Of a stretch of DNA of 64,000 bases, positions 13,702 to 62,331 are shown one piece after another. Under the pieces are notes generated by a model that was not told the DNA's origin, searched no databases, and worked only from the letters and a program-made list of their open reading frames with translations. The translations under genes and the position numbers were made by a program. The DNA is from Ignavibacteriales bacterium (GTDB lineage: Bacteria; Bacteroidota; Ignavibacteria; UBA10030), in NCBI GenBank assembly GCA_026390575.1, contig JAPLFR010000016.1, positions 248,001 through 312,000 of the forward strand. The letters are read 5' to 3'. Position 1 is the first letter of the stretch. Each line of letters begins with the position of its first letter.

Positions 13702-14694
13702 ATGACAACTTATAAAGAATTAGGATTGGTTAATTCGAAAGAGTTATTCCAGAAAGCTATAAAAGGCGGATACGCAATTCCGGCTTTTAATTTTAACAAC
13801 TTGGAACAATTGCAGGCAATCATCGGAGCGTGTGTGGAAACCAAATCGCCTGTCATCCTTCAAGTATCGAGCGGTGCGCGTAAATACGCAAATCAGACCT
13901 TGCTCAGGTTCCTTGCACAGGGTGCAGTGGAATATGCAAAAGAATTGGGCTACGCAATTCCTATCGTACTGCATTTAGATCACGGCGATACGTTTGAACT
14001 TTGCAAATCGTGTATTGAATCCGGATTTTCTTCGGTAATGATCGATGGTTCGCATCATCCCTACGACAAGAATGTGGAACTGACCCGCCAGGTCGTTGAA
14101 TACGCTCATAAGTATGACGTAACTGTTGAAGGCGAACTGGGCGTCTTGGCTGGCATTGAAGATGAAGTCTCCAGCGCCGTTACCCATTACACGAAGCCGG
14201 CAGAAGTGGAAGATTTTGTGAAGAAGACTGGCGTGGATTCGCTGGCGATTTCGATTGGTACATCGCACGGTGCGAATAAATTCACGCCTGCTCAATGCAC
14301 GCGATCCGCAGATGGTGTATTGAATCCACCGCCATTACGGTTTGATATTCTGGAAGAAGTGGAAAAACGAATTCCCGGTTTTCCGATCGTTCTCCATGGT
14401 GCTTCCTCTGTGCCCGTCGATTTGGTAAATATTATTAACGCTAACGGCGGTAAGTTGAAAGATGCAGTTGGTATCCCTGAAGACCAGCTTCGCAAAGCGG
14501 CAGCTTCGGCAGTGTGCAAAGTAAACATCGATTCGGATGGACGTTTGGCTATGACGGCGGCAATTCGTAAAACATTAGCAGACAACCCTGCCGAGTTTGA
14601 TCCGCGCAAGTATCTAGGACCAGCCCGCGATGCGCTCAAAGTGCTTTACAAGCACAAAGTCACAAACGTGCTTGGCAGTGCCGGCAAAGCGTAA
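13702..14694 (+). CDS. fba: Class II fructose-bisphosphate aldolase
   Basis: 330-residue zinc aldolase that interconverts fructose 1,6-bisphosphate with dihydroxyacetone phosphate and glyceraldehyde 3-phosphate in glycolysis/gluconeogenesis. The class II signature HLDHGD with zinc histidines, the VMIDGSHHPYDKN segment, VEGELGVLAG, and the phosphate-binding VLHGASSVP are all visible. It would work with pgi (54540) and the PPi-dependent phosphofructokinase (39427) in this window. The gene is followed by a strong terminator. A decayed copy of its last third plus the terminator is found 2 kb downstream (16730-16875), on the far side of two unrelated genes. Confidence 0.95.
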   Translation: MTTYKELGLVNSKELFQKAIKGGYAIPAFNFNNLEQLQAIIGACVETKSPVILQVSSGARKYANQTLLRFLAQGAVEYAKELGYAIPIVLHLDHGDTFELCKSCIESGFSSVMIDGSHHPYDKNVELTRQVVEYAHKYDVTVEGELGVLAGIEDEVSSAVTHYTKPAEVEDFVKKTGVDSLAISIGTSHGANKFTPAQCTRSADGVLNPPPLRFDILEEVEKRIPGFPIVLHGASSVPVDLVNIINANGGKLKDAVGIPEDQLRKAAASAVCKVNIDSDGRLAMTAAIRKTLADNPAEFDPRKYLGPARDALKVLYKHKVTNVLGSAGKA

Positions 14695-14718
14695 GCACTG
14701 TTTCCAATGGAATAATTG

Positions 14719-14748
14719 AAAATCCCGCCTTGAGCGGGATTTTTTTAT
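14719..14748 (+). terminator. Intrinsic terminator of the aldolase gene
   Basis: AATCCCGC (14721-14728) pairs with GCGGGATT (14734-14741) around a CTTGA loop and is followed by T residues. A mutated but recognisable copy (GATCCTGCCTTGAGCAGGAT) occurs at about 16847-16866. Confidence 0.9.
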
Positions 14749-14924
14749 TGGGCAATATCTCATTTTTCCTGCAAACACAGTAATAACAGCATTACCATAA
14801 AGAATTGCTTTCTGCAAATCCACTCACTGTGATAGGAACCCTTGAATCCTATTCTGCAGTTATTTACATTGATATTGATTTCTTTTCCACGCGTGCAAAC
14901 CACACCTTAATTCATGGAGGACGT

Positions 14925-15395
14925 ATGAGAATCACTCGCAATGTTTTTATATGTATACTCGCAATCACTCTTGCTGGATGTTCCTCGTTGGTGCTTCGTC
15001 CGGCAGATTTTTCATGGCCCATTGAAGTTGCTGTCAAACCAGACGGAAAAGGAAATATACAGGAAGCACGATATCAGGTGAGCTTCAATGTAAAAGCGCT
15101 CTTGTTTGAAGAACTGCAAGACTCGGTTGCTGTTACCAAACATACACTTCACATATTGCGCGATCACGCCGGATACTATTATATTACTGCCAAAGGTTTT
15201 AAGAATGTATATGTCTTTGGCCAGAGTGATGGCGCGCTAAAACTTGAAAAGAAAATACATGTTTCAGAGAAGGGGCTTGAAGCACCGGCCCTGAATCAAA
15301 AAGCACCATACATACATTTGATCAACGAAAATAACGAGAACGAGGTGCCTGTAGTACTAACGAAAGATGGAATTGTGGAAGGAGGAAAGAAATGA
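14925..15395 (+). CDS. Putative lipoprotein of unknown function
   Basis: 156 residues. It has a lipoprotein signal with lipobox LAGC (after MRITRNVFICILAIT), so the mature protein should be lipid-anchored facing the periplasm. The rest is a predicted soluble beta-rich domain with no family I recognise. The ATG at 14925 is preceded by GGAGG; an upstream in-frame extension to 14805 lacks a site and would bury the signal peptide. Its stop overlaps the next gene's start (ATGA), so the two form an operon. Both sit between fba and a decayed copy of the fba 3' end. Confidence 0.75.
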   Translation: MRITRNVFICILAITLAGCSSLVLRPADFSWPIEVAVKPDGKGNIQEARYQVSFNVKALLFEELQDSVAVTKHTLHILRDHAGYYYITAKGFKNVYVFGQSDGALKLEKKIHVSEKGLEAPALNQKAPYIHLINENNENEVPVVLTKDGIVEGGKK

Positions 15396-16657
15396 GAACC
15401 GCACAGAATATTATCATTCTGCTTATTATCGCTGCGGTCTCGTTAACCGCACAGCAGAAATCTGATCGAGCGATAGTTGATAAGTTTGAAAAAACCGTGA
15501 AAGGGCTCTCTCAAGCTGCGGATTCCGCAAAAACGGTACAAGATTGTGCAGACATCAATGCGACTATAGATGAGCTGGAAAGACAATTTGTAACTTATAA
15601 ACCACTGCTTGACCGCGCCCTCTATCCGGACGATTATACAAAGACAATCGCCAACCTCAAAGGGCGATTGCTCGTTCGGCAGAAAGACCTTGGTGTTATC
15701 GAAACACAATTTACCCGAATTGTCGAACTCGAAGGTCAAGTACGGGAGCTCTCCGGAAAAATTTCGAACCTCTCTCAGGAAAATGAAAGACTCATGGGGA
15801 CCGTAAAAACGCTATCAACGTCATACGCGATGAGTAAAGAAACTGATAAAGCAATGTTCGACTCTTTGAACATGGTCATTACCAAGCTCCGTCAAAACTT
15901 GAAAGATCGAGACAACTTGATCTTTGCCCTTATTGACAGTTTATTCATGCAATATGACAAGAACGTCGCTTCGATGAACGATGTTGAGAAACAGGGTATC
16001 TCCGGAAAACTCGAACGGCGAAACGTATTGACAAGTATTAAGAAATCTATTGCAGATAATTTACAATTTCTTGAATCAACGAACCTTACACCAAACGATT
16101 ACGCAGAGATAACACGCCAACATCAACGGTTTACCAGTCAGTGGAAAGGACTTGGACCGAAATTGGCAAGCATCTATTTGAGCGGAAAGCAGAAAAAGAA
16201 CGAGGTAGCATTGATAGATTCTATGCTTTCAACGTGGTCTGCAAAAGTAGACCAAAGCATATGGAAAACGCTTGCTTCTCTTCTGGAGAAAGGTGGAGTT
16301 CAACTTAAGCCGTTCTCGAGTGGCACTGAATTGACCACAAACTTTTCAGAATACGTTGGCACTGAAATAAATAATCCAAAACAAGAACCGGATGATGTAC
16401 GGGCAAAACGATATAATACATTCAATGATATGGTATGGAAAACTGATCTCAAGCCCATATGGCTGCCGGTATTAGCGGAGTCCGGTAAAATAACCGCCGA
16501 TCAGAAAGCAGATATCGAAAAGCAGGTCGACTTATGGCATAGTGCTGTAACACCGGTCTCCCCGATTGTCTATGGCCTCGTCGTCATTCTTATTGCGATA
16601 GTCATCTGGTCACTGAGCCGCTATGTCAGGAAAAAGCCCGTTGTGACAAAGACCTAG
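15392..16657 (+). CDS. Exported coiled-coil protein with C-terminal membrane helix
   Basis: 421 residues. A signal peptide (about 1-20, ending near LTAQQ) is followed by a long helical region with a coiled coil (about 105-165, VELEGQVRELSGKISNLSQENERL). A predicted globular part follows, then one C-terminal membrane helix (about 390-410, IVYGLVVILIAIVIWSLS) and a short basic tail. This places the bulk in the periplasm, anchored at the inner membrane. I recognise no family. Translational coupling to the lipoprotein gene suggests the two proteins form an envelope-spanning pair. Confidence 0.72.
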   Translation: MRTAQNIIILLIIAAVSLTAQQKSDRAIVDKFEKTVKGLSQAADSAKTVQDCADINATIDELERQFVTYKPLLDRALYPDDYTKTIANLKGRLLVRQKDLGVIETQFTRIVELEGQVRELSGKISNLSQENERLMGTVKTLSTSYAMSKETDKAMFDSLNMVITKLRQNLKDRDNLIFALIDSLFMQYDKNVASMNDVEKQGISGKLERRNVLTSIKKSIADNLQFLESTNLTPNDYAEITRQHQRFTSQWKGLGPKLASIYLSGKQKKNEVALIDSMLSTWSAKVDQSIWKTLASLLEKGGVQLKPFSSGTELTTNFSEYVGTEINNPKQEPDDVRAKRYNTFNDMVWKTDLKPIWLPVLAESGKITADQKADIEKQVDLWHSAVTPVSPIVYGLVVILIAIVIWSLSRYVRKKPVVTKT

Positions 16658-16691
16658 TTCAGGCATTTGTTATTTTTTCGTTGATACAGCC

Positions 16692-16730
16692 AAGTCCATT
16701 CTCTTCATAATACAAGAGAATGGACTTTTA
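16692..16730 (+). terminator. Terminator of the lipoprotein/coiled-coil operon
   Basis: AAGTCCATTCTCTT (16692-16705) pairs perfectly with AAGAGAATGGACTT (16714-16727) and is followed by a short T run. It lies 34 bp after the stop codon. Confidence 0.75.
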
Positions 16731-16875
16731 GTTATAACGGCGGCAATTCGAAAAACGTCAGCGGATGATCCTGCTGAGCTTGATAGACGTAAGTATGTTG
16801 TTATAACTCGCTCTGCATAGCAAGGATTACTATAGAATAATTGAAAGATCCTGCCTTGAGCAGGATATTTGTTAC
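16730..16875 (+). pseudogene. Decayed copy of the fba 3' end and terminator
   Basis: The stretch 16730-16798 aligns without gaps to 14547-14615 inside fba (both contain ACGGCGGCAATTCG) at roughly three-quarters identity by eye. After a deletion of about 65 bp, 16820-16870 aligns to the fba stop region and terminator (shared GAATAATTGAAA and CCTTGAGC). Reading frame and stop are lost. It is either the remnant of a second aldolase gene or a tail copy left by insertion of the two genes between the copies. Confidence 0.8.
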
Positions 16876-16919
16876 AGGTAGAGACGTTCAATTGAACGTC
16901 TCACCGCATGAATTTTTTA

Positions 16920-19340
16920 TTATCGATTCATCATATCCAAATCTTCTAGTGGCAGCATAGGCAGCGGCTCTCCGTTATGCCGTAACCGGAACTTCAATAA
17001 TTCGACAGTTGGATCACTTGCAATGTTATTTTCAATGCCAAAAAGTTTCGGTATAAACTTGCTGAAATCTATCAATCCCTTCCTCGGCATCTCTATTATA
17101 GTGAGATCATGATCCTTTGGGATACCGGCACGCTCCTTTGCAATGTTGATTGCTGTTTCCAATCCGCCAAGTACATCCACAAGATCATTCTGTTTTCCAT
17201 CTAAGCCAGACCATACACGTCCCTGTGCAATCGGTTCAATGGCACTTACCTGTTTCTTCCGTCCCAGAGAGACTTTTTCAACAAACTCTTTATACATCGT
17301 CCTTATGGATGATTCAGCGACGGCACGTTCTTCCGGGGCTAGATTACGATCGGGAATTTGAATTCCCACCAGCGGTAATCGCATACCGAATCCTAAATCT
17401 GCATGCGCGCCCACTTTCACAAAATCCGTCGACATACCGAGTGTCTCTTTTAATCCTTTATTGTACATCCAACCCCCAATGACACCAATGGAACCTGTTA
17501 TAGTGCGCGGGGCTGCAACAATTGTATCCGCATACATAGAAAGCCAGTACCCGCCAGAAGCTGCAACAAATCCTTGCGATACAATGATGGGTTTCCTGCC
17601 TTTTGCCTTTTTTATAGCTTCTGCAATATAATCGGAAGCCATCGCGTCGCCTCCGGGTGAATCGACGCGAAGAACAATTGCTTTTACCTTCGAGTTATCT
17701 ACAGCAGCTTCAAAATCTTTCACTAATCTGCGGGCAGCAATTCCCTGATCCATATCGCAGACACCAAGTGCATATATGACTGCAATTTGCGGCGGTTCCC
17801 CCCAGTGATTGTCGTATGGGGCATTGAATTTTTTAAGCGACCCGTCAACAACAAACGATGCATCGCTTCCTGTTTCCTGTCTGACAAGCTGTTTCACTAC
17901 TTCCCAACGTCCTATCGAATCTACCAACCCGTTTTCCTTCGCTTGTTGAGCAAGAAACAGCACATGTTCATTCGCTATCGTGTCAAATTGATAAGAGGTT
18001 AAGTGCCGAGCCTCGCAAATTTCTTCTTTAACAATTTTGTACCAATCATCCACAAGCTTCTGCCGTTGTTCACGATCCGCATCCGACATCTTGTCCCGTG
18101 AAAAATCTTCATTTGCTGACTTATATTTAAAGAACCGCCATTCATCGAATCCAAGACCGATCTTTTCCAGCGTCCCTTTTAAATACGTACGCCCCATAAC
18201 GAACCCATCAATCATGATCATCCCCAGTGGGTCCATGACAATTTTATCTGCAATTGATGCAAGGTGGTACAAATTAATATCTGGGCGGTCAATGAAAACA
18301 AAGACTTTCTTACCGCTGGATTTTAATTCTTTCAGCTTTTCGCGCAATTCCCATAACTTTTCAGCATCTGTTTCCATCCCAGAAGTGTTCAAGGCGATTC
18401 CAGCAACGGCGGGGTCATCCTTTGCTGCATCAAACGCTTCAAGAAGGCTGAGCAGCGTTTGTGTTTTGTCGAAAAGGATATACCGCTGATAATCGACATG
18501 CATTGGTTGATTCATTTCGACAAATACTTTTTTTGTTATGAGAGCGCCGTCAAAAATATTCCTGTCATATGCACCGAGACGAATACCATACGAGTTATAT
18601 GCATGGTTCTTGCTGCCGTCATAGTGCGCCTGTGTCTCCAATCCAAGATGACCAAAGTTGAACTGTACACCGAGAGTAAATGCATTGGTGTTGAAGTAGC
18701 GCCCTATGATACGGATACCGGGCATTGCTTCGAGGGCGATTCCGGCGCTCCACATGTTTTGGTCGAGTTGCGGTGTGCGATGAAGAATATAATCTGCAAA
18801 GATGGTGACCAGTTCGCTTACCAATGGACGCCCTGCGATATCTCCTGCGAGTTCATACCCCTTCGTGTTCAATGCCGATGTATAAGTAACGCCGGTGGAA
18901 ATAAACGGAAGCGGACGATACAATGTACCTAACGTGAGCAGGCTGGATTTATCAAGAGTCGGATTATCGGTAATCGTCCAACCGTATGAAATTCCCGTGC
19001 TGAGAGTTCTATCACCTGCGGCAAGTGAAAGATGATAATCGGCAACTGCGACGCCGCCAATTTTTTCGCGCACCATACCGAATCCTGCGCTCGGTACTCC
19101 GACAAACATACCCCAACGATTTGTTGGATCGCTCGCATCGTTCCATGTCACTAAAAGATCCGGCTGGCGAACATACGAAAGCAGCGCGGGATTATCATAC
19201 CCATATAATCCGAATTTCATTGCTCCGGGTGATGTGAAGAGAAAATCGTTGCGTTCGTGGTATGGAGTGATTGTGGACTGTGCCAGTGCGATATTCACTA
19301 TAATAATGGACAACAGTGCAAACAATATTTTAGGTCTCAT
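16920..19340 (-). CDS. sppA: Signal peptide peptidase SppA-like S49 protease with extra N-terminal domain
   Basis: 806-residue exported serine protease of family S49. The long-form SppA fold is present, with both catalytic residues of the Lys/Ser dyad: K407 in FKYKSANEDF and S595 in VAASGGYWLS, spaced 188 apart (about 200 in the enterobacterial enzyme). Before it lies a region of about 290 residues after the signal peptide (IIIVNIALAQ) that reads as alternating beta strands (GLYGYDNPALLSY, GFGMVREKIG, LGLETQAHYD), like outer-membrane-barrel-type repeats. This is not part of ordinary SppA. The ATG at 19340 is preceded by AAGGAGAA; a longer reading adds 49 unlikely residues. It probably degrades cleaved signal peptides or envelope proteins. 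Confidence 0.82.
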   Translation of the reverse strand: MRPKILFALLSIIIVNIALAQSTITPYHERNDFLFTSPGAMKFGLYGYDNPALLSYVRQPDLLVTWNDASDPTNRWGMFVGVPSAGFGMVREKIGGVAVADYHLSLAAGDRTLSTGISYGWTITDNPTLDKSSLLTLGTLYRPLPFISTGVTYTSALNTKGYELAGDIAGRPLVSELVTIFADYILHRTPQLDQNMWSAGIALEAMPGIRIIGRYFNTNAFTLGVQFNFGHLGLETQAHYDGSKNHAYNSYGIRLGAYDRNIFDGALITKKVFVEMNQPMHVDYQRYILFDKTQTLLSLLEAFDAAKDDPAVAGIALNTSGMETDAEKLWELREKLKELKSSGKKVFVFIDRPDINLYHLASIADKIVMDPLGMIMIDGFVMGRTYLKGTLEKIGLGFDEWRFFKYKSANEDFSRDKMSDADREQRQKLVDDWYKIVKEEICEARHLTSYQFDTIANEHVLFLAQQAKENGLVDSIGRWEVVKQLVRQETGSDASFVVDGSLKKFNAPYDNHWGEPPQIAVIYALGVCDMDQGIAARRLVKDFEAAVDNSKVKAIVLRVDSPGGDAMASDYIAEAIKKAKGRKPIIVSQGFVAASGGYWLSMYADTIVAAPRTITGSIGVIGGWMYNKGLKETLGMSTDFVKVGAHADLGFGMRLPLVGIQIPDRNLAPEERAVAESSIRTMYKEFVEKVSLGRKKQVSAIEPIAQGRVWSGLDGKQNDLVDVLGGLETAINIAKERAGIPKDHDLTIIEMPRKGLIDFSKFIPKLFGIENNIASDPTVELLKFRLRHNGEPLPMLPLEDLDMMNR

Positions 19341-19382
19341 AAATTCTCCTTGGCATTGGCAGGTGAATGAAGGACAAATACG

Positions 19383-19388
19383 ATTATA
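19383..19388 (-). promoter_or_regulatory. Candidate -10 box of sppA
   Basis: TATAAT on the minus strand, about 43 bases before the sppA start. The -35 region is weak, so the call rests on the perfect -10 and its position. Confidence 0.35.
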
Positions 19389-19449
19389 TTTTACGGACAA
19401 TTTGCAAAAATGTTTATCGGATTGAAAGAAAAGACTTCCAAAATTCTGT

Positions 19450-19485
19450 GAACCTTGCCAAGGTTTCAAACCCTTGACAAGGTTC
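19450..19485. repeat. Hairpin repeat with CCTTG-CAAGG arms
   Basis: GAACCTTG (19450-19457) pairs with CAAGGTTC (19478-19485), with CCAAGG and CCTTGACAAGG nested inside. It shares its core with 3899-3909 and is probably a dispersed palindromic repeat lying between divergent genes. Confidence 0.55.
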
Positions 19486-19616
19486 ATGTTGCGGAAGTTT
19501 TTTCTTTGACAATGAGAAAGCGAACAAATTGACGATATAAAATGATGAAAGTCCCGAAAAATATTTCTATATTTGCTACGAATTGTGAACCCTACACAAA
19601 CACACGAGGCAATCGA

Positions 19617-19985
19617 ATGGCTGGTGTCTATGAACTCAACTATAAAGGTAAGAACATTCTGTGTTTGGATGTTGCAGGCCTAAAATTAAAGGACAAACCG
19701 GAATTTCAGAAACACGTAGAAGAAGCTAAGGAACAAATCCGAAAGTGTCCTCCAAAATCCTTATTGATTATTACAAATGTTACTTCCACCGGATTTGATA
19801 CACAGGTTGCTGCGATCATGGGGGAATATGCCGACCACAACACTGCGTACGTAAAAGCCAGTGCTTTGGTTGGAGTATCAGGCGTGCAGAAAGTCGTCCT
19901 GGCTGCAATCAAAGCGATGATCGGTAGAGATTTTTATCTTGCAGATACTATGGAAGAAGCACAGGAGTGGCTGATACAACAATAA
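19617..19985 (+). CDS. STAS-like small protein, tandem copy 1
   Basis: 122-residue cytoplasmic protein that resembles STAS/SpoIIAA-like domain proteins (MAGVYELNYKGKNILCLDVAGL, then KSLLIITNVT). The ATG at 19617 is chosen because a GAGG site precedes it and because it gives exactly the same length as the next gene; an upstream start at 19542 adds 25 residues with no match. The next gene, 15 bp downstream, is a clear paralogue. Single-domain STAS proteins usually act by binding partners, often anti-sigma factors or kinases. None is next door, so the role is unknown. Confidence 0.78.
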   Translation: MAGVYELNYKGKNILCLDVAGLKLKDKPEFQKHVEEAKEQIRKCPPKSLLIITNVTSTGFDTQVAAIMGEYADHNTAYVKASALVGVSGVQKVVLAAIKAMIGRDFYLADTMEEAQEWLIQQ

Positions 19986-20000
19986 TGAGGAGATAATAAC

Positions 20001-20369
20001 ATGGCTGGTGTCTATGAACTCAATCATAAAGGTAAGAAAATACTATGCTTGGATATTGCAGGCTTGCAATCTAAAGATAAACCAGAATTTCATGAACATG
20101 TTGAACACGCAAAAGAAATAATCCGACGGCAACCTCCAAAATCATTGCTTGTCATTACACAAGTAACAAATACGGGATTTGATGCAGAGATAGCCGGCCT
20201 TATTAAAGAATATGCACAGCACAACACGCCATATGTCAAGGCAAGTGTAGTAGTTGGAATAGCAGGATGGGCAAAAATTATCTTAACCGTAATTAAAACT
20301 GCGACAGGGAGGGATTTCCATCTTTCAGACACCATGGAAGAAGCGCAGGAGTGGCTGGTAAATCAATAA
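20001..20369 (+). CDS. STAS-like small protein, tandem copy 2
   Basis: 122 residues, colinear with the preceding gene over its full length (same MAGVYELN start, same GRDF-DTMEEAQEWL end), so the pair arose by tandem duplication. Divergence is spread through the middle, which suggests both copies are maintained. GAGGAG precedes the start at suitable spacing. Function is unknown as for copy 1; the two may form a heterodimer. Confidence 0.78.
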   Translation: MAGVYELNHKGKKILCLDIAGLQSKDKPEFHEHVEHAKEIIRRQPPKSLLVITQVTNTGFDAEIAGLIKEYAQHNTPYVKASVVVGIAGWAKIILTVIKTATGRDFHLSDTMEEAQEWLVNQ

Positions 20370-20482
20370 AATCTATGAATAGCCATACCGACAGTCATAT
20401 ATGCTTAAGGATTTAACATTGAGATAAGGTAACCGTTATCTCTGTTATTCTAGCAGAAGAAGAAACGGTAATTCACACGATA

Positions 20483-20923
20483 ATGATTATCATCCAAAAA
20501 GAAATACAACTCCGTGCACGCACCCGTGGATTCCATCTGGTCACACCGGAGATCATTTCTCAAATTCCGGAGTTGGAAACAATTCAGCACGGAGAGCTTC
20601 ATGTGTTTCTCAAACATACATCAGCATCACTCACGCTGAACGAAAATGCCGATCCCACCGTCCGTGAAGATTTTGAAAAACACTTTAACAAATTGGCGCC
20701 GGAACATGCGCCATATTACGGACATGACACCGAGGGATCCGATGATATGCCGGCACACCTCAAATCATCGATACTTGGAAGCAGTGTGTTCATTCCAGTG
20801 ACAGATGGAAGGTTGAATCTTGGCACATGGCAGGGAATTTATTTTTGCGAACATCGCAATGATGGAGGAGCAAGAGATTTAGTGCTGACACTTATTGGAA
20901 AAGAAATCGGTTTTTCGAACTGA
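20483..20923 (+). CDS. yjbQ: YjbQ family protein (UPF0047)
   Basis: 146 residues covering the whole UPF0047/YjbQ domain. Seen are the LKHTSASLTLNENADPTVREDF signature with its histidine, DDMPAHLKSSILGSSVFIPV, and GTWQGIYFCEHR. Members form trimers, and some have weak thiamine-phosphate synthase activity. The physiological role is not settled. It has its own upstream space and no clear operon partner. Confidence 0.92.
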   Translation: MIIIQKEIQLRARTRGFHLVTPEIISQIPELETIQHGELHVFLKHTSASLTLNENADPTVREDFEKHFNKLAPEHAPYYGHDTEGSDDMPAHLKSSILGSSVFIPVTDGRLNLGTWQGIYFCEHRNDGGARDLVLTLIGKEIGFSN

Positions 20924-21205
20924 ATCAAATTTTGGTTGCCAAATCCCATCCGCTTGATAATTATTTCCAATAAATAATATCTCCATCTTGGAACGAAGGA
21001 GAGGTAGAGAACCTTATGAAAAGTTATAATCCTTACATAATGATTATACAATGCGTACCATCGGGTAGTACGCTGCACGGTAGATCAACGGGAATAATCT
21101 TCTTGTTGCCTCCGTCCTTTCCATCCCGTACATTGAAACCCACACACATCAATCAACGTATTGAGGTAGTAATTCATTATGTCCCAACAAATTCAAGGTG
21201 ATGAA

Positions 21206-41073: not shown

Positions 41074-41200
41074 GTAACTGCACACAGGCTTGGTAAGAAG
41101 ATGTTATTATACGAAGCCGATTTTTTCAGTGACCGTCCTTTCGTTTTGTATGAACCCAGATAGTGACGGCCATTTTTTTTAATTTAAAAAAGGAACCATC

Positions 41201-41815: not shown

Positions 41816-41829
41816 TAACAAGGCATCAA

Positions 41830-42045: not shown

Positions 42046-42081
42046 TTTAAAACAGCAACTTCTTTACTTATCTCGCAAATA
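42045..42081. repeat. Left direct repeat of the defence island (copy of the lhgO 3' end)
   Basis: ATTTAAAACAGCAACTTCT (42045-42063) is identical to 47589-47607, which is the end of the lhgO coding strand including its stop. Weaker similarity continues to about 42081 (CTCGCAAAT against CGCGCAATT). It has no coding role here and looks like the far junction of an insertion. Confidence 0.75.
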
Positions 42082-42142: not shown

Positions 42143-42209
42143 TAATTAATTATTTCAACGAACTTTACGAAGAACTATTTGTGTCTCGCTCTTGTTTAAG
42201 GAGGCACAG

Positions 42210-42893: not shown

Positions 42894-43300
42894 CAAATAT
42901 CTTGCAACATCCTCCGAAGACAGGCGAAGTGTGGTCAGTCGACGATGATGAAGTGAGACTTCATGTAGAAGGTAGAGAAGAGAAAGGACCGAGACCTGTT
43001 GTTATATTAATGGCTCCTCAAATTGATATTTCGAAAATTGGTGTTGCTAATGTTGTGCCTCTTACAACATCCTCCAACCCAGATGCGCTCATTATTCCGA
43101 TTACGAAGGGTTATGAAGATATCGCTCAGGGATTTGCTCCCGACAATAATTCTTGTGCGGTGGTGAATTTCTACCAGCCAATAGAGATTCGCTTTTTTAG
43201 GAAGTATCGGGGAAGACTAGATGAAACTACACAGGTAATGCTTAAATCTGTTTTGCAAAATCGAGTGATCGGAATTGCCGATTTCGATTTTACTGTTTAG
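42890..43300 (+). CDS. MazF/PemK-like toxin candidate
   Basis: 136 residues that read as a divergent MazF/PemK SH3-like barrel: TGEVWSVDDDE at the start, GPRPVVILMAP, ANVVPLTTSSNPDALIIPI and NFYQPIEIRFF. MazF proteins are mRNA interferases. The long loop and the spacing differ from the common type, so activity is not assured. Translational coupling to the Panacea gene supports a toxin-antitoxin pair in the order antitoxin-toxin. Confidence 0.72.
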   Translation: MTNILQHPPKTGEVWSVDDDEVRLHVEGREEKGPRPVVILMAPQIDISKIGVANVVPLTTSSNPDALIIPITKGYEDIAQGFAPDNNSCAVVNFYQPIEIRFFRKYRGRLDETTQVMLKSVLQNRVIGIADFDFTV

Positions 43301-43393
43301 GAATGTATTGCTAAACTAGGATTATTCTATTTAAAGTTTTTCTTTTGTGTATCTTAGCTCAAGAATATAGCCGACTTTGAACTTGACGATTAT

Positions 43394-47588: not shown

Positions 47589-47607
47589 ATTTAAAACAGC
47601 AACTTCT
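47589..47607. repeat. Right direct repeat of the defence island (3' end of lhgO)
   Basis: Identical to 42045-42063. On the minus strand it encodes the last residues of lhgO (EKLLF and stop), so the repeat is the intact host-gene end. Confidence 0.75.
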
Positions 47608-48703
47608 CCACATACCGCGCAATTGCCGGCGATGACGTTAATCCCGGCGAATCAATTCCAATCAAGTTCACAAATCCTGAGAGACCGCGAGCCGTTTCAT
47701 GAACGATGACAAAATCGCGCGGCGGTTTCCCTTTCTTCTGGAGTTTCGGACGAATACCGCTCATATCCGGCGAGATATCTTCATCAGTGATGCCTGGTAA
47801 AATTCGGCGAATGGATTCGGCAAACGCATGCCGCTTGTTCTCTGCTACATAATAATCGAGCGTGCGGCCATCAAGATATTCTACATCGGGACCGAACTTC
47901 AACCTTCCTCCCCAATCCATGAGTGCATGTATGCCAAGCCCTTCGTTCACCGGAACGGGATACACAAGCCGTGATATAAGCTTTGCCTTGGATGGTGCTA
48001 TTGCAAAGTACGACCCTTTGACATAATTCAACCGCAAATCTTCTTTATCGATATCAATGCCGATCATCTGTGCGATGAGATCGGAACCAAGTCCAGCCGC
48101 ATTGATGACGATCTCACTTGTTATACTCGACCTGTTTCCTGCTTCATCCAAAACAATTTCATGTTCACTATGAACTTGCCGAATGTCAACAACGTGGCAC
48201 CGATGCTGAATCGTTCCGCCATATGATTGCGTCGTATGGAAATAATAATCCATCAGATCATGTACGCTAATAACACCTGTGAGCGGCGAGAAGAGCGCAC
48301 CTTCCGTTCGAATGTTCGGTTCTAACTTCAACGCTGCAGTTTTATCAAGAAGCTGTAATTCCACTCCATTCTTTGCTGCATTCTGCTGAATACCTTCAAG
48401 CTTCGCCAATTCTGTCGTCGTTGTTGCGGTGATCAGTTTTGTCAACGGTTTAAAAGCGATATCGTGCGCTTTGCAGAGAGCGTATAACTCATCCCTTCCT
48501 TCAACACATAACCGCGCTTTCAACGAGCCTAGTTCATAATATATGCCTGCGTGTATCACCTCGCTATTACGGCTTGAAGTTTCCATTCCATACTTTTCAT
48601 TCTTTTCGAGAAGAAGAAGATTGGGATGTCGTTCAGAAAGGCGCGCAGCAATTGCAAGTCCAACCACACCAGCACCAATTATTGTAATTTCAAAATCTGC
48701 CAT
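47591..48703 (-). CDS. lhgO: L-2-hydroxyglutarate oxidase LhgO family FAD enzyme
   Basis: 370-residue FAD-dependent oxidoreductase. The dinucleotide motif is IGAGVVGLAIA, followed by SSRNSEVIHAGIYYELGSLKA, AGLGSDLIAQ and the C-terminal GIDSPGLTSSPAIA. These match the LhgO/L2HGDH branch of the DAO family. It oxidises L-2-hydroxyglutarate and passes electrons to the quinone pool. The last codons form the 19-bp repeat that bounds the neighbouring defence island. The DinB-type gene is divergent, 124 bp away. Confidence 0.88.
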   Translation of the reverse strand: MADFEITIIGAGVVGLAIAARLSERHPNLLLLEKNEKYGMETSSRNSEVIHAGIYYELGSLKARLCVEGRDELYALCKAHDIAFKPLTKLITATTTTELAKLEGIQQNAAKNGVELQLLDKTAALKLEPNIRTEGALFSPLTGVISVHDLMDYYFHTTQSYGGTIQHRCHVVDIRQVHSEHEIVLDEAGNRSSITSEIVINAAGLGSDLIAQMIGIDIDKEDLRLNYVKGSYFAIAPSKAKLISRLVYPVPVNEGLGIHALMDWGGRLKFGPDVEYLDGRTLDYYVAENKRHAFAESIRRILPGITDEDISPDMSGIRPKLQKKGKPPRDFVIVHETARGLSGFVNLIGIDSPGLTSSPAIARYVEKLLF

Positions 48704-56339: not shown

Positions 56340-57053
56340 ATGCGCATCCTCGTAATTGAAGACGAACTAAAAGTCGCCCGTTTTCTCAAAAAGGGTTTGG
56401 AAGCTGAAGGATATGAAGTTGAAACTGCCGCTGATGGAAAATCCGGCGAGAAGTTAGCCCGCACAGAAGCATACGATCTCATCCTGCTTGATGTCCTCTT
56501 GCCAAAAAAGGACGGTTTTGAGATATTGCGCGACCTCCGCAAAGATGAAATCCGGATTCCGATACTCATGCTGACTGCGCGAAGCACGACGGAAGACATC
56601 GTTGGCGGATTAGACCATGGCGCCGACGATTACCTGACAAAACCGTTCGCCTTCACTGAATTGCTGGCACGCATCCGATCTCTCATGCGTCGCGGAACAG
56701 TGAAGACAAAACTCAAATATATCGATTTGACATTGGACACAATCGCACATAAAGCCAGCCGCGCCGGTAAACAGATCGAACTCACTGCCCGTGAATACGC
56801 TTTGATAGAATATTTTATGCGCAATCGCGGTAAATTGATTTCACGGCAAGAACTGGCAAAGGAAATCTGGGGATATAATTTTGACCCGGGAACAAACGTT
56901 GTTGATGTCTATGTGAATCACCTCCGAAATAAAATAGATGCTGATTCCACAATAAAACTCATGCAGACAGAACGCGGCAAAGGGTACTACCTTTCGGACA
57001 AGAAGATTATATTCAAGCCCGCCAAAGGAACGGTGTCGGGCAAGTTCGCATGA
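56340..57053 (+). CDS. OmpR/PhoB-family response regulator
   Basis: 237 residues. The receiver carries D8 and phospho-acceptor D51 (ILLDVLLPKKDG), and K in YLTKPFAF. A winged-helix DNA-binding domain follows (IELTAREYALIEYFMRNRGKLISRQELAKEIWG, NVVDVYVNHLRNKI). The start of the kinase gene overlaps its stop (ATGA). It resembles the CusR/ArlR group, but the signal is unknown. Confidence 0.93.
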   Translation: MRILVIEDELKVARFLKKGLEAEGYEVETAADGKSGEKLARTEAYDLILLDVLLPKKDGFEILRDLRKDEIRIPILMLTARSTTEDIVGGLDHGADDYLTKPFAFTELLARIRSLMRRGTVKTKLKYIDLTLDTIAHKASRAGKQIELTAREYALIEYFMRNRGKLISRQELAKEIWGYNFDPGTNVVDVYVNHLRNKIDADSTIKLMQTERGKGYYLSDKKIIFKPAKGTVSGKFA

Positions 57054-58537
57054 CAATTCTTCACTCCATTCGTACCAAGCTTTCGTTGTGGTATGCTGCA
57101 ATCCTGTGCGTAACACTCATAGGTTCAGGTGCAATCGCTTATGTCGTATCGCGGTCAACACTCTTAGACAATCTCGATGGGTCGCTGAAGAATGAAGTAA
57201 CGTGGGTGAATGCGTTTATCGAACCAAAAGCAAAAAAAGTAAAACTAAAACGTGCCGCACTCCAAGAACTGCGGGAACTCAAGCGCACAGCCGCACAGCA
57301 GGAAGAACAGCCGGAAGTAATTGATACAAGCGCCGGCAAACGGACGGAAATAGATGAGATGTGGAGTCAAATTTACCAACACACGCTTCTCAGTCCGCGC
57401 CGGCATTATATTCAGATTCTTGACCGTAATGGTGATTTGCTTTACAGGTCGCAAAGTTTGCGCGGCCACACAATCAGCTACAGCGAAATCCCATATCAAT
57501 GGATCAATGTCGTCAGCACAAAGGGTCCGGATGACCAAGGAATTCGCCTTGCATTAACTCAAAACGACTATGTGAAAATTTTTGTCGCCTACCCGCTGGA
57601 GCCTATATATGAAATCACAGATAATGTTTTCTACAACTTTCTCTTCATTACACCGTTAGCGTTATTGATCTCTATCATTGGCGGATGGTTTCTGGCGCAT
57701 AAATCGCTCAAACCCGTTGATGAATTGACGAGGACCGCCAAAGAAATTACTGCGCAAAATCTTAGCCGCCGACTTCCAACCCACCGCGTCAATGACGAGC
57801 TTGGCAGGTTGACAGAACAATTCAATGATATGATCAGCCGGCTCCAGGCATCGTTCACACAAATCCAGCAATTTTCTGCCGACGCGTCGCATGAATTACG
57901 CACGCCGCTCACGATTATGCGCGGCGAAATAGAAGTAGCTCTTCGCAACCAACGATTATCGAAAGATTCACGCGAATTGCTCAAAAGCATCAACGATGAA
58001 CTTATCCGGCTTTCTTCTATTGTAGAAAGTCTGATGATTCTTGTGAAATCTGATACAGGCAGATTGGTATTCAATATGCAGCCAATAGCTCTCGACGAGT
58101 TCATCGAACAACTTTTTGAAGAGACGAAAGTACTTGCAGAATCAAAGAAAATAAAAGTGCAATTAGAACACACACAGCCAATCCAAATCAATGGTGATGC
58201 TGTACGCTTGAAGCAGCTCTTCCTCAATCTTATCGACAACGCCTTAAAGTACACGCCGCCGCGCGGACAGGTTACATTGACACTGGCGAAAAAAGAAGGC
58301 GACGCCGTGTTGTCTGTAAAGGATAACGGCATTGGCATTCCACGCAAAGATCAAACCAAAATTTTTGAACGATTCTATCGTGTGGACAGAAGTGAGGATA
58401 CCACGGAAGATGCAGGCGGAAGCGGGCTCGGTCTTTCCATTGCCAAATGGATTACTGAAGCACATAATGGCTCAATCGAATTGAAAAGCAGAGAAGGCAA
58501 GGGGAGTACATTTACCGTGCGGTTTCCGATTTTGTAG
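57050..58537 (+). CDS. Transmembrane sensor histidine kinase (CusS/ArlS-like)
   Basis: 495 residues. Helix 1 (about 13-35), an extracytoplasmic domain of about 150 residues, helix 2 (about 193-215), HAMP, the H-box FSADASHELRTPLTIMRGE with His281, and a full ATPase domain (LFLNLIDNALKYT, VKDNGIGIP, GGSGLGLSIAKWITEAHNGS) make a complete kinase. The stop codon TAG lies inside the first bases (GTAGAGTCC) of a 70-bp palindromic element. Four further copies of the last 27 or so codons occur downstream (58604-58869 and 62026-62267). Confidence 0.93.
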   Translation: MTILHSIRTKLSLWYAAILCVTLIGSGAIAYVVSRSTLLDNLDGSLKNEVTWVNAFIEPKAKKVKLKRAALQELRELKRTAAQQEEQPEVIDTSAGKRTEIDEMWSQIYQHTLLSPRRHYIQILDRNGDLLYRSQSLRGHTISYSEIPYQWINVVSTKGPDDQGIRLALTQNDYVKIFVAYPLEPIYEITDNVFYNFLFITPLALLISIIGGWFLAHKSLKPVDELTRTAKEITAQNLSRRLPTHRVNDELGRLTEQFNDMISRLQASFTQIQQFSADASHELRTPLTIMRGEIEVALRNQRLSKDSRELLKSINDELIRLSSIVESLMILVKSDTGRLVFNMQPIALDEFIEQLFEETKVLAESKKIKVQLEHTQPIQINGDAVRLKQLFLNLIDNALKYTPPRGQVTLTLAKKEGDAVLSVKDNGIGIPRKDQTKIFERFYRVDRSEDTTEDAGGSGLGLSIAKWITEAHNGSIELKSREGKGSTFTVRFPIL

Positions 58538-58603
58538 AGTCCAGTCACCGACTGGACATTTTCTATTGCCTTCATGTTGTCCGATCTGATGATCGGACTC
58601 TAC
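58534..58603. repeat. Palindromic element E, copy 1
   Basis: 70 bp with 9-bp terminal inverted repeats GTAGAGTCC/GGACTCTAC. Inside are two hairpins: GTCCAGTC/GACTGGAC and GTCCGATC/GATCGGAC. It supplies the stop codon of the kinase gene. A near-identical copy lies at 62110-62179. Confidence 0.88.
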
Positions 58604-58687
58604 GGATACCGAAGCGCACCATAGCTCAATAGAATTGAAAACCAGAGAAAGCAAAAGCAACGCGTTTATTGTGCGGCTGCCGATTCT
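58604..58687 (+). pseudogene. Duplicated kinase tail, copy T2
   Basis: Matches the last 27 or so codons of the upstream kinase gene. Translation in the kinase frame is open to a stop (TEAHHSSIELKTRE, then VRLPIL). There is no start codon or gene body. It joins element E on both sides. Confidence 0.85.
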
Positions 58688-58776
58688 GTAGAGTCCAGTC
58701 ACTGACTGGACATTTTTTATTGCCTTCATGTTGTCCGATTTGATGATCGCCTGCCTGCCGCAGGCAGGGACTCTAC
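58688..58776. repeat. Palindromic element E, copy 2 (long variant)
   Basis: Same ends as copy 1, but the right arm of the second hairpin is replaced by an inserted palindrome (CCTGCCTGCCGCAGGCAGG), bringing the length to 89 bp. Copy 3 (61932-62025) shares this variant. Confidence 0.85.
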
Positions 58777-58869
58777 GCGTACTGAAAAACACAACGGTAC
58801 AATCGAAGAAATAAGTAGAGGAGACAAGGATAATACGTTTACCGTACGGTTGCCGTTATATAACCTTTG
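58777..58869 (+). pseudogene. Duplicated kinase tail, copy T3
   Basis: Third kinase-tail copy, more diverged (TEKHNGTIEEISRG, then FTVRLPLYN and a stop). The following 30 bp (CCTTTGAACCGATG) match the sequence after copy T5 at 62280-62310, so the downstream flank is duplicated as well. Confidence 0.8.
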
Positions 58870-58906
58870 AACCGATGTGCATTTGCATTCTGCTAGGTAC
58901 CGTTGC

Positions 58907-60073
58907 TTACGCCAGAGGCAGCGTTATTTTTATTTGGATGCGATTATTTTCACTTGCACTCACCTGGAACGAACCTCCTTGAGCTTCTATGATTCTCCGA
59001 GAGATTGTAAGATTTAAAGTGCTTGCCGTTAAGGTGTTATTGATGTTTTTCCATTCGGTTTCTTTTTCGGTCATACCTACCAAAAGCTCTTCAGGAGTTA
59101 TCGAACGATTTGAGTACTCGATCGTGCAAATCGCACATTCAGATGGCTCTCCAAGTAAACCGATCTGAGATTTCGCGAGGGTTACACTAAGGAGATCATT
59201 TTGTTTTGAAGTATTTATGCCGATCTCAAAAATACTGTTCACAACTTGCTCAACACGTTCAGCATCACATTGTACATGAGGGAGTTGCGAATCGTTCAAT
59301 AGCTTAAACACAATTTTCTTTTCCAGAATACATGATTCATAACGATCGGCTATCCGTTTTACTAACAGACCAAGATCCGTCTCTGTTTGACGGAGAAGAA
59401 AAAATCCGTCTGTACGATCGTATTCTTTTACGTTTTCTTTATCTTTGAGTGCACAATCTGCGCATTTATGAGAGCGGTTGCATACTGCAAAATCATTGAC
59501 TTTTGTGCTTTCTCTCAAGGTATGAGCAATTTGATCGTTCAGTTCGAGTGCATGGGAGAGCAGTGCCCTGTCTTTTTCCGATAACACAGATTTCATAGAT
59601 CCTAGTGTATGGTTCATTATAAATTGAATACTTCGAAGTGATCCTAATACGTCAAACAATATGGTGGATTGCCATAAATTTCTGAGAGCTAAGAATCGAT
59701 GTTCAGAATCACGCACGCGGAGCAATGACTTAATTCGTGATACCAACTCTGTGAGGTCAATGGGTTTTAATAAATAGTCCTTCGCTCCCTTTTCTATACA
59801 CTCTGTAGCCATAGAATAATCGTCAAGGGCAGTCATCATTACAACGTCCGTATAGGGATGTTTTGATGTAATAAATTCCAGCACTTGTATTCCATTCATG
59901 AGCGGCATATTGATATCGAGAAGCACGATATCATAATTTTTTTGTTCGATACGAGTCAATGCCTCTTCACCATTCGCCGCTGTATCGACATCATATCCCT
60001 GTGATTTTAGTTTGTATTGACTGGACCGTGCAATCGCTTCCTGATCGTCAACAACAAGAATTGAAGCTTTCAT
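58907..60073 (-). CDS. Response regulator fused to a degenerate kinase-like domain
   Basis: 388 residues. The receiver is intact (D9-D10, D53 in LLDINMPLMNG, K103). The following part is shaped like a histidine kinase but lacks key residues. The H-box position reads FDVLGSLRSI with no histidine. The N-box reads EQVVNSIFEIGIN, and the glycine box is replaced by STLNLTISRRII. A cysteine group, C198-X5-C204-X2-C207, sits between them and could bind metal. It is probably a phosphorylation-responsive scaffold. The gene is on the minus strand, third in a three-gene set with 60136 and 60566. Confidence 0.8.
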   Translation of the reverse strand: MKASILVVDDQEAIARSSQYKLKSQGYDVDTAANGEEALTRIEQKNYDIVLLDINMPLMNGIQVLEFITSKHPYTDVVMMTALDDYSMATECIEKGAKDYLLKPIDLTELVSRIKSLLRVRDSEHRFLALRNLWQSTILFDVLGSLRSIQFIMNHTLGSMKSVLSEKDRALLSHALELNDQIAHTLRESTKVNDFAVCNRSHKCADCALKDKENVKEYDRTDGFFLLRQTETDLGLLVKRIADRYESCILEKKIVFKLLNDSQLPHVQCDAERVEQVVNSIFEIGINTSKQNDLLSVTLAKSQIGLLGEPSECAICTIEYSNRSITPEELLVGMTEKETEWKNINNTLTASTLNLTISRRIIEAQGGSFQVSASENNRIQIKITLPLA

Positions 60074-60135
60074 TCAAACACCTCTTTCTGACAACACAAT
60101 AGTATTCATATTGACATCCTGTATACTTCGGTTCA

Positions 60136-60510
60136 TTAGGAACCTATGTATCTTTGAATAGTGTTCAGCAATTCCTCTGGATCCATTGGTTTTGTATATT
60201 GTTCTACACAACCAATCGAACGCGTTCGTGCAATATCTTCCGGACGGGCTTGAGCGGTAAATGCAATTATAGGAATTGTGTGGAACATTGGATCCCCCTT
60301 GATGACTGACACTGCCGCATAACCATCCATAACAGGCATTTGCATATCCATCAAGATTAAATCAGGGCGTTTTATTTTGATAAGATCAATTGATTCCTGA
60401 CCGTTCACCGCAATCACGAGCTCGATATCGAGACGACTTCGGGAGATAACAAACTTCACTAATTCACGATTATCTTCGTCATCATCCACTAATAGAACTA
60501 CTTTGCTCAT
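60136..60510 (-). CDS. Single-domain response regulator (CheY-like)
   Basis: 124 residues, one receiver domain only: acidic DDDED, phospho-acceptor D55 in LILMDMQMPVMDGY, FTAQARPED, and YTKPMDPEEL. No output domain. It probably relays phosphate between kinases in a phosphorelay with the genes on either side (63 bp and 56 bp gaps). Confidence 0.9.
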   Translation of the reverse strand: MSKVVLLVDDDEDNRELVKFVISRSRLDIELVIAVNGQESIDLIKIKRPDLILMDMQMPVMDGYAAVSVIKGDPMFHTIPIIAFTAQARPEDIARTRSIGCVEQYTKPMDPEELLNTIQRYIGS

Positions 60511-60565
60511 TGACTAAACCTCCATGTGAGCGTTGAGTAATAAAATATTTTTTCTTTATGAAGGA

Positions 60566-61720
60566 TCATACAAGCGATCCGATATATTCACGAATATGCT
60601 GTAATTTTTCATTGACCAATGTGTTGATCTCATCGAATTCACAGGATTTGGAAATATAACCTTCGGCACTTTTTAATTCAGAAGCACTAATTTGGTTTTC
60701 CTCAGAAGGTTCGCACAATAAAATGAATGGCACTGTTTGATTTTTTGACCGGGTCCGCCAAAAATGCAGAAACTTAAAACCGCTCAATCCACCTATCTCA
60801 GACATTGTATCACAGAGAATAATTGCTGGATTAAGTTTCTCAACTTTTTCGAGCGCCTCTTCGGCACTTGAAGCTGAAGCAACTGCAAATCCGGTTTCCT
60901 TAAATCGCGGAACGAACTCTCCTCGTAGCTTTTCATTTGGTGATACAAACAGCATTGTGCCTCGAAATTGACTTGTCACCAATTCTGTTAAGAAATGAGA
61001 TTCGTATTCCAAGTATTCATTTATTGATACTTGATATATTTTCCGCAGCCACTCAAGCGTAGATGATGAACTTCGCAATAATTTTCGTTTGGCGATTACT
61101 TCTTTTACTGCTTTGCTGTACATCATCAGCTTGACTTCGCGCATTACCGACGTTTCTACTTCGGGAGGTATATTAAGAACTCGCACTAATCTTTGAAGCT
61201 CATCGGATTCGTTGTTTTTGGGCGCTCCGAATTGCCACGCCTTCTCAAGCGCTGCCCTCAATTGGCGCACCGATGCTTCAAGCTGCTGGGTCACTATTTC
61301 CTCGCGAGCAACTCGTTCAATATTGAGTGTACGGTTTAGTTCAGCAATCTGCTGACGCATCTCCATAATCGTTGATGTGAGCAGTTCTTCCTTCGATGAA
61401 ACTTGAGGGGGTTCGATAAGAGAAGTCGGTGACGGGTTCACTAACAATACGGGTTTAGGCCGATTTATGACCTTTGTATCTATTACGTTGCGATCTTGCT
61501 CGGTGGTTTGTGCTTCTATATTGGCATGTCGTTTTGTATATGTCTCTTGAAAAAGCCTTAAGCGTTCTTCAAAAGCGGAGATGTACGGATTAGTAGGATC
61601 AACCTGACTAGCATTTTGTATTTCTTCACGAGCCTTGTCAAAGAGGTTATTCTTAAGATACTTATCGGAAGCAAGAAGATGATCCTTTGCGACCATCCTA
61701 TTTTTATCCGGCATAGTCAA
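60566..61720 (-). CDS. TPR-like/coiled-coil protein with atypical C-terminal receiver
   Basis: 384 residues. The N-terminus has one TPR-like helix pair (HLLASDKYLKNNLFDKAREEIQNASQVDPTN), then a linker, a coiled coil (about 110-165) and a helical region. The C-terminal receiver keeps the phospho-acceptor D (ILCDTMSEIGG) and the lysine (ISKSCEF), but the acidic metal pair is replaced by SPNE and the switch Thr/Ser by a cysteine/glutamate region (LLCEPSEEN). It is likely a pseudo-receiver. TTG at 61720 has GAGGG at fair spacing; the ATG at 61714 is the alternative start. It leads the three-gene minus-strand unit. Confidence 0.75.
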   Translation of the reverse strand: MTMPDKNRMVAKDHLLASDKYLKNNLFDKAREEIQNASQVDPTNPYISAFEERLRLFQETYTKRHANIEAQTTEQDRNVIDTKVINRPKPVLLVNPSPTSLIEPPQVSSKEELLTSTIMEMRQQIAELNRTLNIERVAREEIVTQQLEASVRQLRAALEKAWQFGAPKNNESDELQRLVRVLNIPPEVETSVMREVKLMMYSKAVKEVIAKRKLLRSSSSTLEWLRKIYQVSINEYLEYESHFLTELVTSQFRGTMLFVSPNEKLRGEFVPRFKETGFAVASASSAEEALEKVEKLNPAIILCDTMSEIGGLSGFKFLHFWRTRSKNQTVPFILLCEPSEENQISASELKSAEGYISKSCEFDEINTLVNEKLQHIREYIGSLV

Positions 61721-61931
61721 TTCAATTTTCCCTCGTGACCCATTGCTTTCCTTCTTGCATGTGCTAACTCTTAACTGTTTAATACAAAAAAACGTTTCAC
61801 ATTATTTTCCGCGCAATACAAAAAGCCATAATTCTGCTTAAAAAGGAATCCGAAAATTGCGGAGTTTTAGTTAGGATTATTCCTATTGTGCTAATTGAGT
61901 GAATAATCAGAGATTTTCGAGTGATACTGAG
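61721..61931. other. Intergenic region before the response-regulator trio
   Basis: 211 bp that must hold the promoter of the minus-strand trio. No clear promoter boxes or structure were recognised. Confidence 0.4.
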
Positions 61932-62025
61932 GTAGAATCCAGTCAGTGATTGGACATTCTATGCATTATTATCTTCATATTGTCCGATCTGATGATCGCC
62001 CGCCTGCGGCAGGCAAGGACTCTAC
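61932..62025. repeat. Palindromic element E, copy 3 (long variant)
   Basis: Starts GTAGAATCC and ends GGACTCTAC. It contains CGCCTGCGGCAGGC in the second arm, like copy 2. It lies on the far side of the response-regulator trio from copies 1 and 2 and in the same orientation. Confidence 0.83.
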
Positions 62026-62109
62026 CAGTACTGAAGAACACAACGGTGCAATTGAAGTGAAAAGCAGAGAAGGCAAAAGCAGTACGTTTATCGTTCGGTT
62101 GCCGGTTCT
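62026..62109 (+). pseudogene. Duplicated kinase tail, copy T4
   Basis: Open in the kinase frame: TEEHNGAIEVKSREGKSS, then FIVRLPVL and stop. It keeps the kinase-tail pattern closely (TEAHNGSIELKSREGKG in the real gene). No start codon or body precedes it. Confidence 0.87.
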
Positions 62110-62179
62110 GTAGAGTCCAGTCACCGACTGGACGTTTTCTATTGCCCTCATATTGTCCGATCTGATGATCGGACTCTAC
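62110..62179. repeat. Palindromic element E, copy 4
   Basis: 70 bp, almost identical to copy 1 (58534-58603), with both terminal repeats and both internal hairpins intact. Confidence 0.88.
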
Positions 62180-62267
62180 GGGTACTGAAGAACACAATGG
62201 TACAATTGAAGTGAAAAGCAGAGAAGACAAAAGCAGTACGTTTATCGTTCGGTTGCCGATTTTGTAG
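62180..62267 (+). pseudogene. Duplicated kinase tail, copy T5
   Basis: Open in the kinase frame (TEEHNGTIEVKSRED, then FIVRLPIL and stop). It ends in TTTTGTAG, but no element E follows. The next 30 bp match the flank after copy T3. Confidence 0.85.
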
Positions 62268-62331
62268 AAAGCTATTGAGCCTTTGAGCCGATGAGCAATT
62301 TGGGTTCAGTTAGAAAGTATTTGCAATTACC

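Follow-up and report, generated by a model that had tools for sequence, protein, structure and literature searches.

The main finding of this work is that three blocks of accessory genes in an Ignavibacteriales bacterium lie downstream of ordinary host genes and carry, on their far side, extra copies of the ends of those genes, which we read as probable scars of recombination that added DNA at this place. The DNA analysed, hereafter the window, is a stretch of 64,000 nucleotides (positions 248001-312000 of contig C16) of a 3.82-Mb genome assembled in 16 contigs (G000), and it was compared with five congeners (G001 to G005), which together with G000 make up a genus set of six genomes. A preliminary description of this stretch had claimed far-edge direct copies of the last codons of fba, of an lhgO-like gene and of a sensor histidine kinase (HK) gene, and sequence matches in the window and in the genome bore this out. 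The three repeats are real and all lie downstream in direct orientation, but they are not one uniform element, and a single mechanism for all three cases was rejected because the HK locus differs, with arrays that contain palindromes. With a probability of about 0.6, we consider that additive recombination (insertion-duplication), guided by homology and taking place at ordinary genes, left the far-side tails behind as scars.

This reading was examined with a scan for gene-end copies of the kind proposed in the preliminary description, run on 1.53 Mb of the genome (about 40%) and covering 1,052 genes with products of 150 aa or more. Genes were called by a simple open reading frame (ORF) rule and their ends were searched for in flanks of 10 kb, after dropping paralogues, sequences present three or more times elsewhere and ORFs with masked bases. 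Tail copies downstream on the same strand were found for 12 of the 1,052 genes, head copies upstream for eight, internal copies for four, tail copies upstream for two and head copies downstream for none; opposite-strand tail or head copies were absent from the scan of the 1,052 genes. The direction test gave 20 of 22 (p 1e-4). Eight background scans with shifted flanks, taken elsewhere, returned no downstream tail copy, on which ground chance was rejected as the source of the tail copies, together with 0.12 upstream head copies and about 2.5 internal copies per scan, and since four internal copies were seen, these are near background. The raw excess of tail over head copies was not significant (12 against 8, p 0.50; 10 against 4, p 0.18, among genes of at least 250 aa).

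All 12 tail genes belong to Pfam families, a feature read after the fact: aldolase, DAO oxidoreductase, histidine kinase, DUF4097, DEAD helicase, amino-acid permease, sigma-54 regulator, Mg-chelatase/ComM type, bacterial hydrolase, glycosyltransferase 9, PNTB and Fe/Mn superoxide dismutase. The copied segments measure approximately 25-135 nt; for ComM, the BLAST match covers 21 nt and inspection by eye lengthened it to 25. The wrong starts that come with the ORF rule harm head results more than tail results; five of the eight head genes have a Pfam family, two are ORFs without one and the eighth was searched over just 43 aa, and by our reading of the results only ClpB has its head copies within the likely true coding start. 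A 3' bias of end copies, resting on this curation, is probable. At the ClpB-type gene (G000:C9:129798-132431), two upstream copies of its first 47-48 coding nt were observed. Parts of two genomes from other families (326 genes in total) gave two downstream tail copies, a rate that does not differ significantly (p 0.54, with low power), besides four upstream head copies, one downstream head copy and two internal copies. The suggestion of a general gene-tail duplication process in this lineage is thus supported as regards the process (12/1,052), whereas a property special to the lineage was not shown (2/326).

We hypothesize that donor DNA from a relative, in which other genes stand behind the 3' end of a host gene, would pair with the resident gene, and that the donor's downstream genes would be added ahead of the resident's old 3' end and its old neighbour. 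Two routes could lead there: a single crossover, if the incoming molecule is circular or concatemeric, or a homologous crossover on one side with an illegitimate joint, placed at a microhomology, on the other. The host gene would stay whole with its own promoter, and the old tail would be left behind in direct orientation. Fragments of 5' ends would produce the mirror image, a head copy upstream, while internal fragments would break the gene and hence would not be kept. Repeated events at one gene would stack cargo genes between tails, as in the array at the DUF4097 gene described below. Tails downstream, heads upstream, hardly any inverted copies and internal copies at background would all follow, because end fragments spare the gene and internal ones break it. 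The sequences directly show the repeats and their direction, the arrangements without cargo in relatives, the joint with microhomology at fba and the stacked array, while import from a relative, the route of DNA entry, the participation of RecA and a circular or linear form of the donor are inferred.

The direction of the copies also bears on the alternative that a gene or segment was duplicated in tandem and then decayed to remnants. A short tandem repeat lacking cargo at PNTB and the partly tandem arrays at HK are in line with that process, which however predicts tail-upstream and head-downstream remnants as well; two and none were seen, both tail-upstream genes lying in a single repeat-rich stretch. 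Moreover, no second copy of the window cargo occurs among the direct repeats, and the flanks stand together without cargo in relatives. Tandem duplication with decay was rejected on copy direction and on the cargo-free sites, and we regard it as very improbable.

In the window, the fba gene (13702-14694, plus strand) encodes a class II fructose-bisphosphate aldolase (PF01116, E 1e-94; NF005481 above cut-off). Part of its tail (14537-14613, plus strand) recurs as a sequence match at 16720-16796 on the same strand, with 78% identity over 77 nt (E 3e-12, window search), and at E 0.001 this tail has two places in the genome only, the gene and the far copy. The latter is degenerate and lacks the final 81 coding nt of the gene. 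The fba terminator (14694-14744) is likewise repeated on the plus strand at 16819-16870 (81%, E 2e-7), after which follows sequence common to G001. Between the copies lies cargo 1 (14805-16657, plus strand), consisting of two overlapping ORFs of 196 and 421 aa without a Pfam match and followed by a terminator-like hairpin with 14-bp perfect arms (16692-16727, plus strand). ATGGAC, the opening bases of the far copy, is also part of this hairpin and constitutes a microhomology with fba: the joint is found at GAATGGACTTTT/GGATGGACGTTT, where GAATGGACTTTT lies inside the cargo terminator hairpin and resembles GGATGGACGTTT within fba. In G001, the closest congener, the sequence corresponding to 13663-14745 continues directly into that of 16844-20945, with a single terminator and no cargo 1, so that fba is followed at once by an S49 gene, and the far copy in G000 is joined to the same downstream sequence as fba of G001. 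In G004 the order is fba-cargo-S49 without a tail copy and with a comparable terminator hairpin; an arrangement like that of a donor therefore exists. Judged from sequence, the fba joint looks like a homologous event on one side and an illegitimate one on the other.

Two further observations were made near this locus. In G002 (C81:5641-6555) and G003 (C111:2284-3198), a 46%-identical aldolase occupies the place of fba beside the S49 gene, which may reflect either gene replacement or an old tandem pair. At 19606-20289 of the window, two 300-nt direct repeats, 70% alike, lie in adjacent small ORFs and are probably tandem paralogues.

The second host gene encodes an lhgO-like FAD oxidoreductase (47591-48703, minus strand; PF01266, best NCBIfam model NF008726, below cut-off). 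Its repeat, on the minus strand, joins 47589-47622 with a far-side copy at 42045-42078 (29 of 34 nt, 85%), the stop-codon end being exact over 19 nt, and was recovered with E 2.5e-5 in the window and 3e-4 in the genome; a third genome place was not found at E 1. It is the shortest and weakest of the three window repeats. Cargo 2a (42192-43300, plus strand) encodes a SocA/Panacea-like protein (PF13274, E 3e-7) and a PemK/MazF-like toxin (PF02452, E 9e-7), whose genes likely form a pair. Cargo 2b (43394-47392, minus strand) encodes a 1,332-aa protein with DUF4011, AAA helicase and MTES_1575 nuclease regions, likened to the anti-phage proteins PDC-S37, ProA and Hhe: it is closest to PADLOC PDC-S37, then to Hhe, and its matches to the NCBIfam ProA and Hhe models are both below cut-off. 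This helicase occurs in one of the six genus genomes, and a search of 98 genomes from the order gave matches in 5 at E 1e-50; beyond G000, the only full-length one is in G079, from another family (81%), the remaining three being partial at 34-36%. A conserved cargo edge was sought around the G079 helicase, and nothing beyond the ORF was common to both genomes. The G079 locus has direct repeats of its own: in stretch L224 (9154-10025 and 13399-13494), a 96-nt repeat that is gene-head-like by eye lies 4.2 kb upstream of its second copy, in a region where several fragments stand ahead of another gene. They are possibly further end scars, in another family.

In G004, the sequences matching 41190-42063 and 47591-48130 directly adjoin each other, and the core is present once; a 71-aa ORF (41830-42045, plus strand) has a counterpart there that adjoins lhgO. 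In G001, lhgO lies within about 30 nt of a 204-aa ORF found here at 41201-41815, and the far copy in G000 is attached to the same neighbour that stands beside lhgO in G004. Because of these cargo-free contiguous flanks, the closeness of lhgO and the ORF in G001 and the position of the far copy at the native neighbour, the lhgO block is clearly an insertion. The claim that one tail is native and the other imported fits both lhgO and fba in that the far copy adjoins the native neighbour, with import as its putative part.

A rival reading is site-specific integration into the 3' ends of protein genes, with target restoration as by a prophage and with the integrase lost or acting in trans. Prophages and islands are known to integrate into protein-gene 3' ends, such as e14 at icd and the staphylococcal cassette chromosome (SCC) at rlmH; they restore the host gene, whose former tail ends up beyond the element in direct orientation. 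The old tail has the same position and orientation here, and the 19-nt exact core, the cargo-free lhgO site in relatives and four tyrosine recombinases in the genome, one of them a clear integron integrase, are compatible with such an event. The same applies to the deviant G+C content of the lhgO cargo, 0.346-0.402 across the four 1-kb steps of 43001-47000 against 0.41-0.49 in most other steps of the window; the lowest value (0.346) falls at 45-46 kb, inside the block, though that of 63-64 kb is close (0.359). In contrast to e14 and SCC, however, a Pfam search of the nine ORFs of the three window blocks returned no integrase or other recombinase, and the duplications vary in length without a common core. 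They affect 12 different genes, and the tail segments share no k-mer beyond chance, on which ground one common recombination core was rejected. An exact core on both sides is seen at lhgO, where the relatives' tails show two or more changes, and the fba and HK copies have diverged over their length. Empty sites are found at lhgO in G004, at fba in G001 (where loss is possible) and between HK and coaD. The head-side case at ClpB and the microhomology in the terminator at the fba joint argue against site-specific integration. We therefore consider site-specific integration unlikely; the trans-acting integration system put forward earlier lacks support in view of the variable lengths, the absence of a shared motif and of a recombinase among the nine cargo ORFs, and the head-side equivalent, and neither a dedicated 3'-end integrase nor a shared dedicated integration system is supported.

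The strongest single case, with stacked insertions and tails between cargo genes, is a DUF4097 gene outside the window (C16:75413-76561). In G000 it is followed by a serine hydrolase gene (PF00144), a 59-nt tail copy (98%), the gene of a second, distant PF00144 protein, a second tail copy, a C69 peptidase gene and, beyond a large gene, a third tail copy, which is weak. Three tail copies thus stand among different cargo genes in G000, while G001 and G003 have two each, with another gene first, then a tail copy, the serine hydrolase and a second tail copy; there are none in G002, G004 and G005, and G004 and G005 have two DUF4097 genes side by side, free of cargo. The cargo genes that flank the 98% copy belong to the same Pfam family and are distant, in separate clusters, so a recent tandem duplication that then decayed is not favoured. 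The stretch right 3' of the stop codon and before the hydrolase travels with the hydrolase, since it is similar behind the gene itself (G000, G002) and behind a far copy (G001, G003). The gene ends in LRR ahead of the hydrolase and in LRH ahead of the other gene, with LRH in cargo-free G004 and LRR in G005. In our reading, the cargo would bring its own last codons and the old end would be pushed onward.

This locus also allowed the movement of cargo as cassettes by an integron integrase, with tails as by-products, to be considered. The genome encodes such an enzyme (TIGR02249, 442 bits against a cut-off of 265; G000:C7:21845-22837), with five attC-like hairpins of about 160 nt each between C7:11171 and 17979. 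In G003, an attC-like stretch lies behind the first cargo gene after DUF4097, and by eye its first box is complementary to the start of that cargo. The stretch lies behind a protease-like gene, at about 2450-2620 of C40:23500-33500, and by eye the two resemble an integron-type cassette behind the DUF4097 gene. Against this, the three DUF4097 tail stretches fold no better than shuffles (z 0.62 to -0.52), so that attC-type folding was rejected for them. No attC-like site was detected in the window with a search that is insensitive to composite sites and also misses the G003 stretch, and a cassette inserted at a G-TT site should leave no copy of 34-135 nt from a host gene. An origin of the tails through the integron integrase is, in our view, most improbable.

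The HK locus has a different ingredient, as its tails alternate with palindromes resembling repetitive extragenic palindromic (REP) sequences on both sides of the cargo. The HK gene (57050-58537, plus strand) is followed by array 1 (58538-58858, plus strand), composed of palindrome, tail 2, palindrome and tail 3; by cargo 3 (58907-61720, minus strand), with three response-regulator genes of 388, 124 and 384 aa, each with PF00072; and by array 2 (61933-62268, plus strand), with palindrome, tail 4, palindrome and tail 5. A gene for a protein sorted by the type IX secretion system (62332-63963, minus strand; PF18962), whose ORF reaches 64446 in the joined contig, lies between array 2 and coaD (64555-65064 in window coordinates, outside the window). 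The tail starting at 58453 recurs at 58607, 58780, 62029 and 62183 (75-87% identity, best E 4e-53), which makes four extra tails instead of one, alternating with palindromes of about 65-90 nt. The far edge thus does carry extra tail copies, as first described, but as an array and not a lone tail, and this array, palindrome-tail-palindrome-tail plus some downstream sequence, aligns with the near one over its whole length. The pair may have arisen by duplication of one array around the cargo or by the splitting of an older one. HK and coaD are adjacent in G001, G003, G004 and G005 and about 5 kb apart in G002; by arithmetic on genome alignments, the gap is roughly 30-90 nt in G001, G003 and G004, 165 nt in G005 and 6.0 kb in G000, and one palindrome is already present behind HK in G004. 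In a comparison that left out tail 3, two far tails keep V (EVK) and L (RLP), as in all five relatives, whereas both residues are gone from the attached tail; this hints weakly at the far copies as the older state.

For this locus alone, amplification of REP palindromes by a REP-associated tyrosine transposase (RAYT), carrying the gene tail along, is a real possibility, at somewhat less than even odds. Besides the alternation with tails, three of the four palindromes fold with z -4.6 to -5.9 (the other, -1.6), and the family is dispersed, with 17 genome matches, 5 at HK and 12 elsewhere. The genome has 13 Y1_Tnp matches, and one such gene is flanked by palindromes of the same layout as those at HK; the dispersed imperfect palindromes and the flanked Y1 transposase gene that characterize REP/RAYT systems are therefore both present. 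None of the 12 other matches, however, includes the HK tail, so the tail did not move with those, and neither fba nor lhgO is explained in this way. The palindromes at 58690-58778 and 61933-62026 contain a nested small palindrome of the GCCTGCCTGC...GCAGGCAGG kind, and nested inserts like GCCTGCCTGC...GCAGGCAGG recur in other palindromes genome-wide.

Several results weigh against additive recombination as the source of the tails. Among the genomes compared, none came close enough to a donor to prove import. G000 and G004 are just 76% identical over fba and the start of the cargo, which speaks against recent import, and no recombination breakpoint within fba was detected against G001, G004 or G005, divergence being even along the gene; the homologous side of the joint accordingly has neither a breakpoint nor a close donor. 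The fba cargo may have been gained in G000 or lost in G001. At lhgO, the 34-nt repeat with its exact core and one-sided mismatches resembles an attachment site equally well. The tail-over-head bias becomes significant solely after curation by eye, the PNTB case has no cargo, and in G002 the hydrolase stands behind the DUF4097 gene without a tail copy.

Additive recombination has relatives among described systems. For Rhs C-terminal displacement, homologous recombination with circular intermediates was proposed (Jackson 2009, PMC2935791). As in that system, an intact gene has displaced 3' ends downstream of it, in the same orientation and in strings with other genes between them, which our scan found here, with strings at the DUF4097 locus. 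In Rhs, however, the tail is the variable part of the rhs gene, whereas here the tail is conserved and the downstream cargo is the added part; an rhs host gene with a variable C-terminus was not found, the 12 tail genes belonging to other Pfam families, and the hosts are housekeeping or regulatory genes such as fba, lhgO, superoxide dismutase and PNTB. In Vibrio type VI secretion effector-immunity arrays, homology-facilitated illegitimate recombination was proposed (2017, PMC5361080), and in that proposal, as would be the case here, a new module joins by homology on one side and by an illegitimate joint on the other, which moves the old 3' end downstream; there, the array can be kept for the sake of its immunity genes, while no such selection is evident here. 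Integrase-free hotspots (2017, PMC5635113) similarly hold cargo without mobility genes between core genes, but, as that report presents them, double recombination at the flanking core genes leaves no tail copy, whereas addition leaves a scar. Transformation can also build duplications (PMC3784515). A narrow literature search found no paper on end-copy scars at ordinary genes, and the scars are most suitably classed with C-terminal displacement, as a variant in which additive recombination affects ordinary genes.

A further idea, which we hold to be a long shot, is that the 3' ends of certain ordinary genes, most clearly DUF4097, might serve as a recombinase-free loading dock, where units of a gene tail and one accessory gene would circulate between strains and enter by general recombination, the tails acting as portable homology tags in a role similar to that of attC sites in integron cassettes. 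The way in which accessory genes without mobility genes enter bacterial chromosomes is an open question, and a displaced gene end would offer a readable scar from which such events could be counted and oriented in single genomes. The scar could also separate additive from replacement recombination and indicate the native flank. With 12 such genes in 1.5 Mb, these scars are suggested to be common, and they may be overlooked outside toxin loci.

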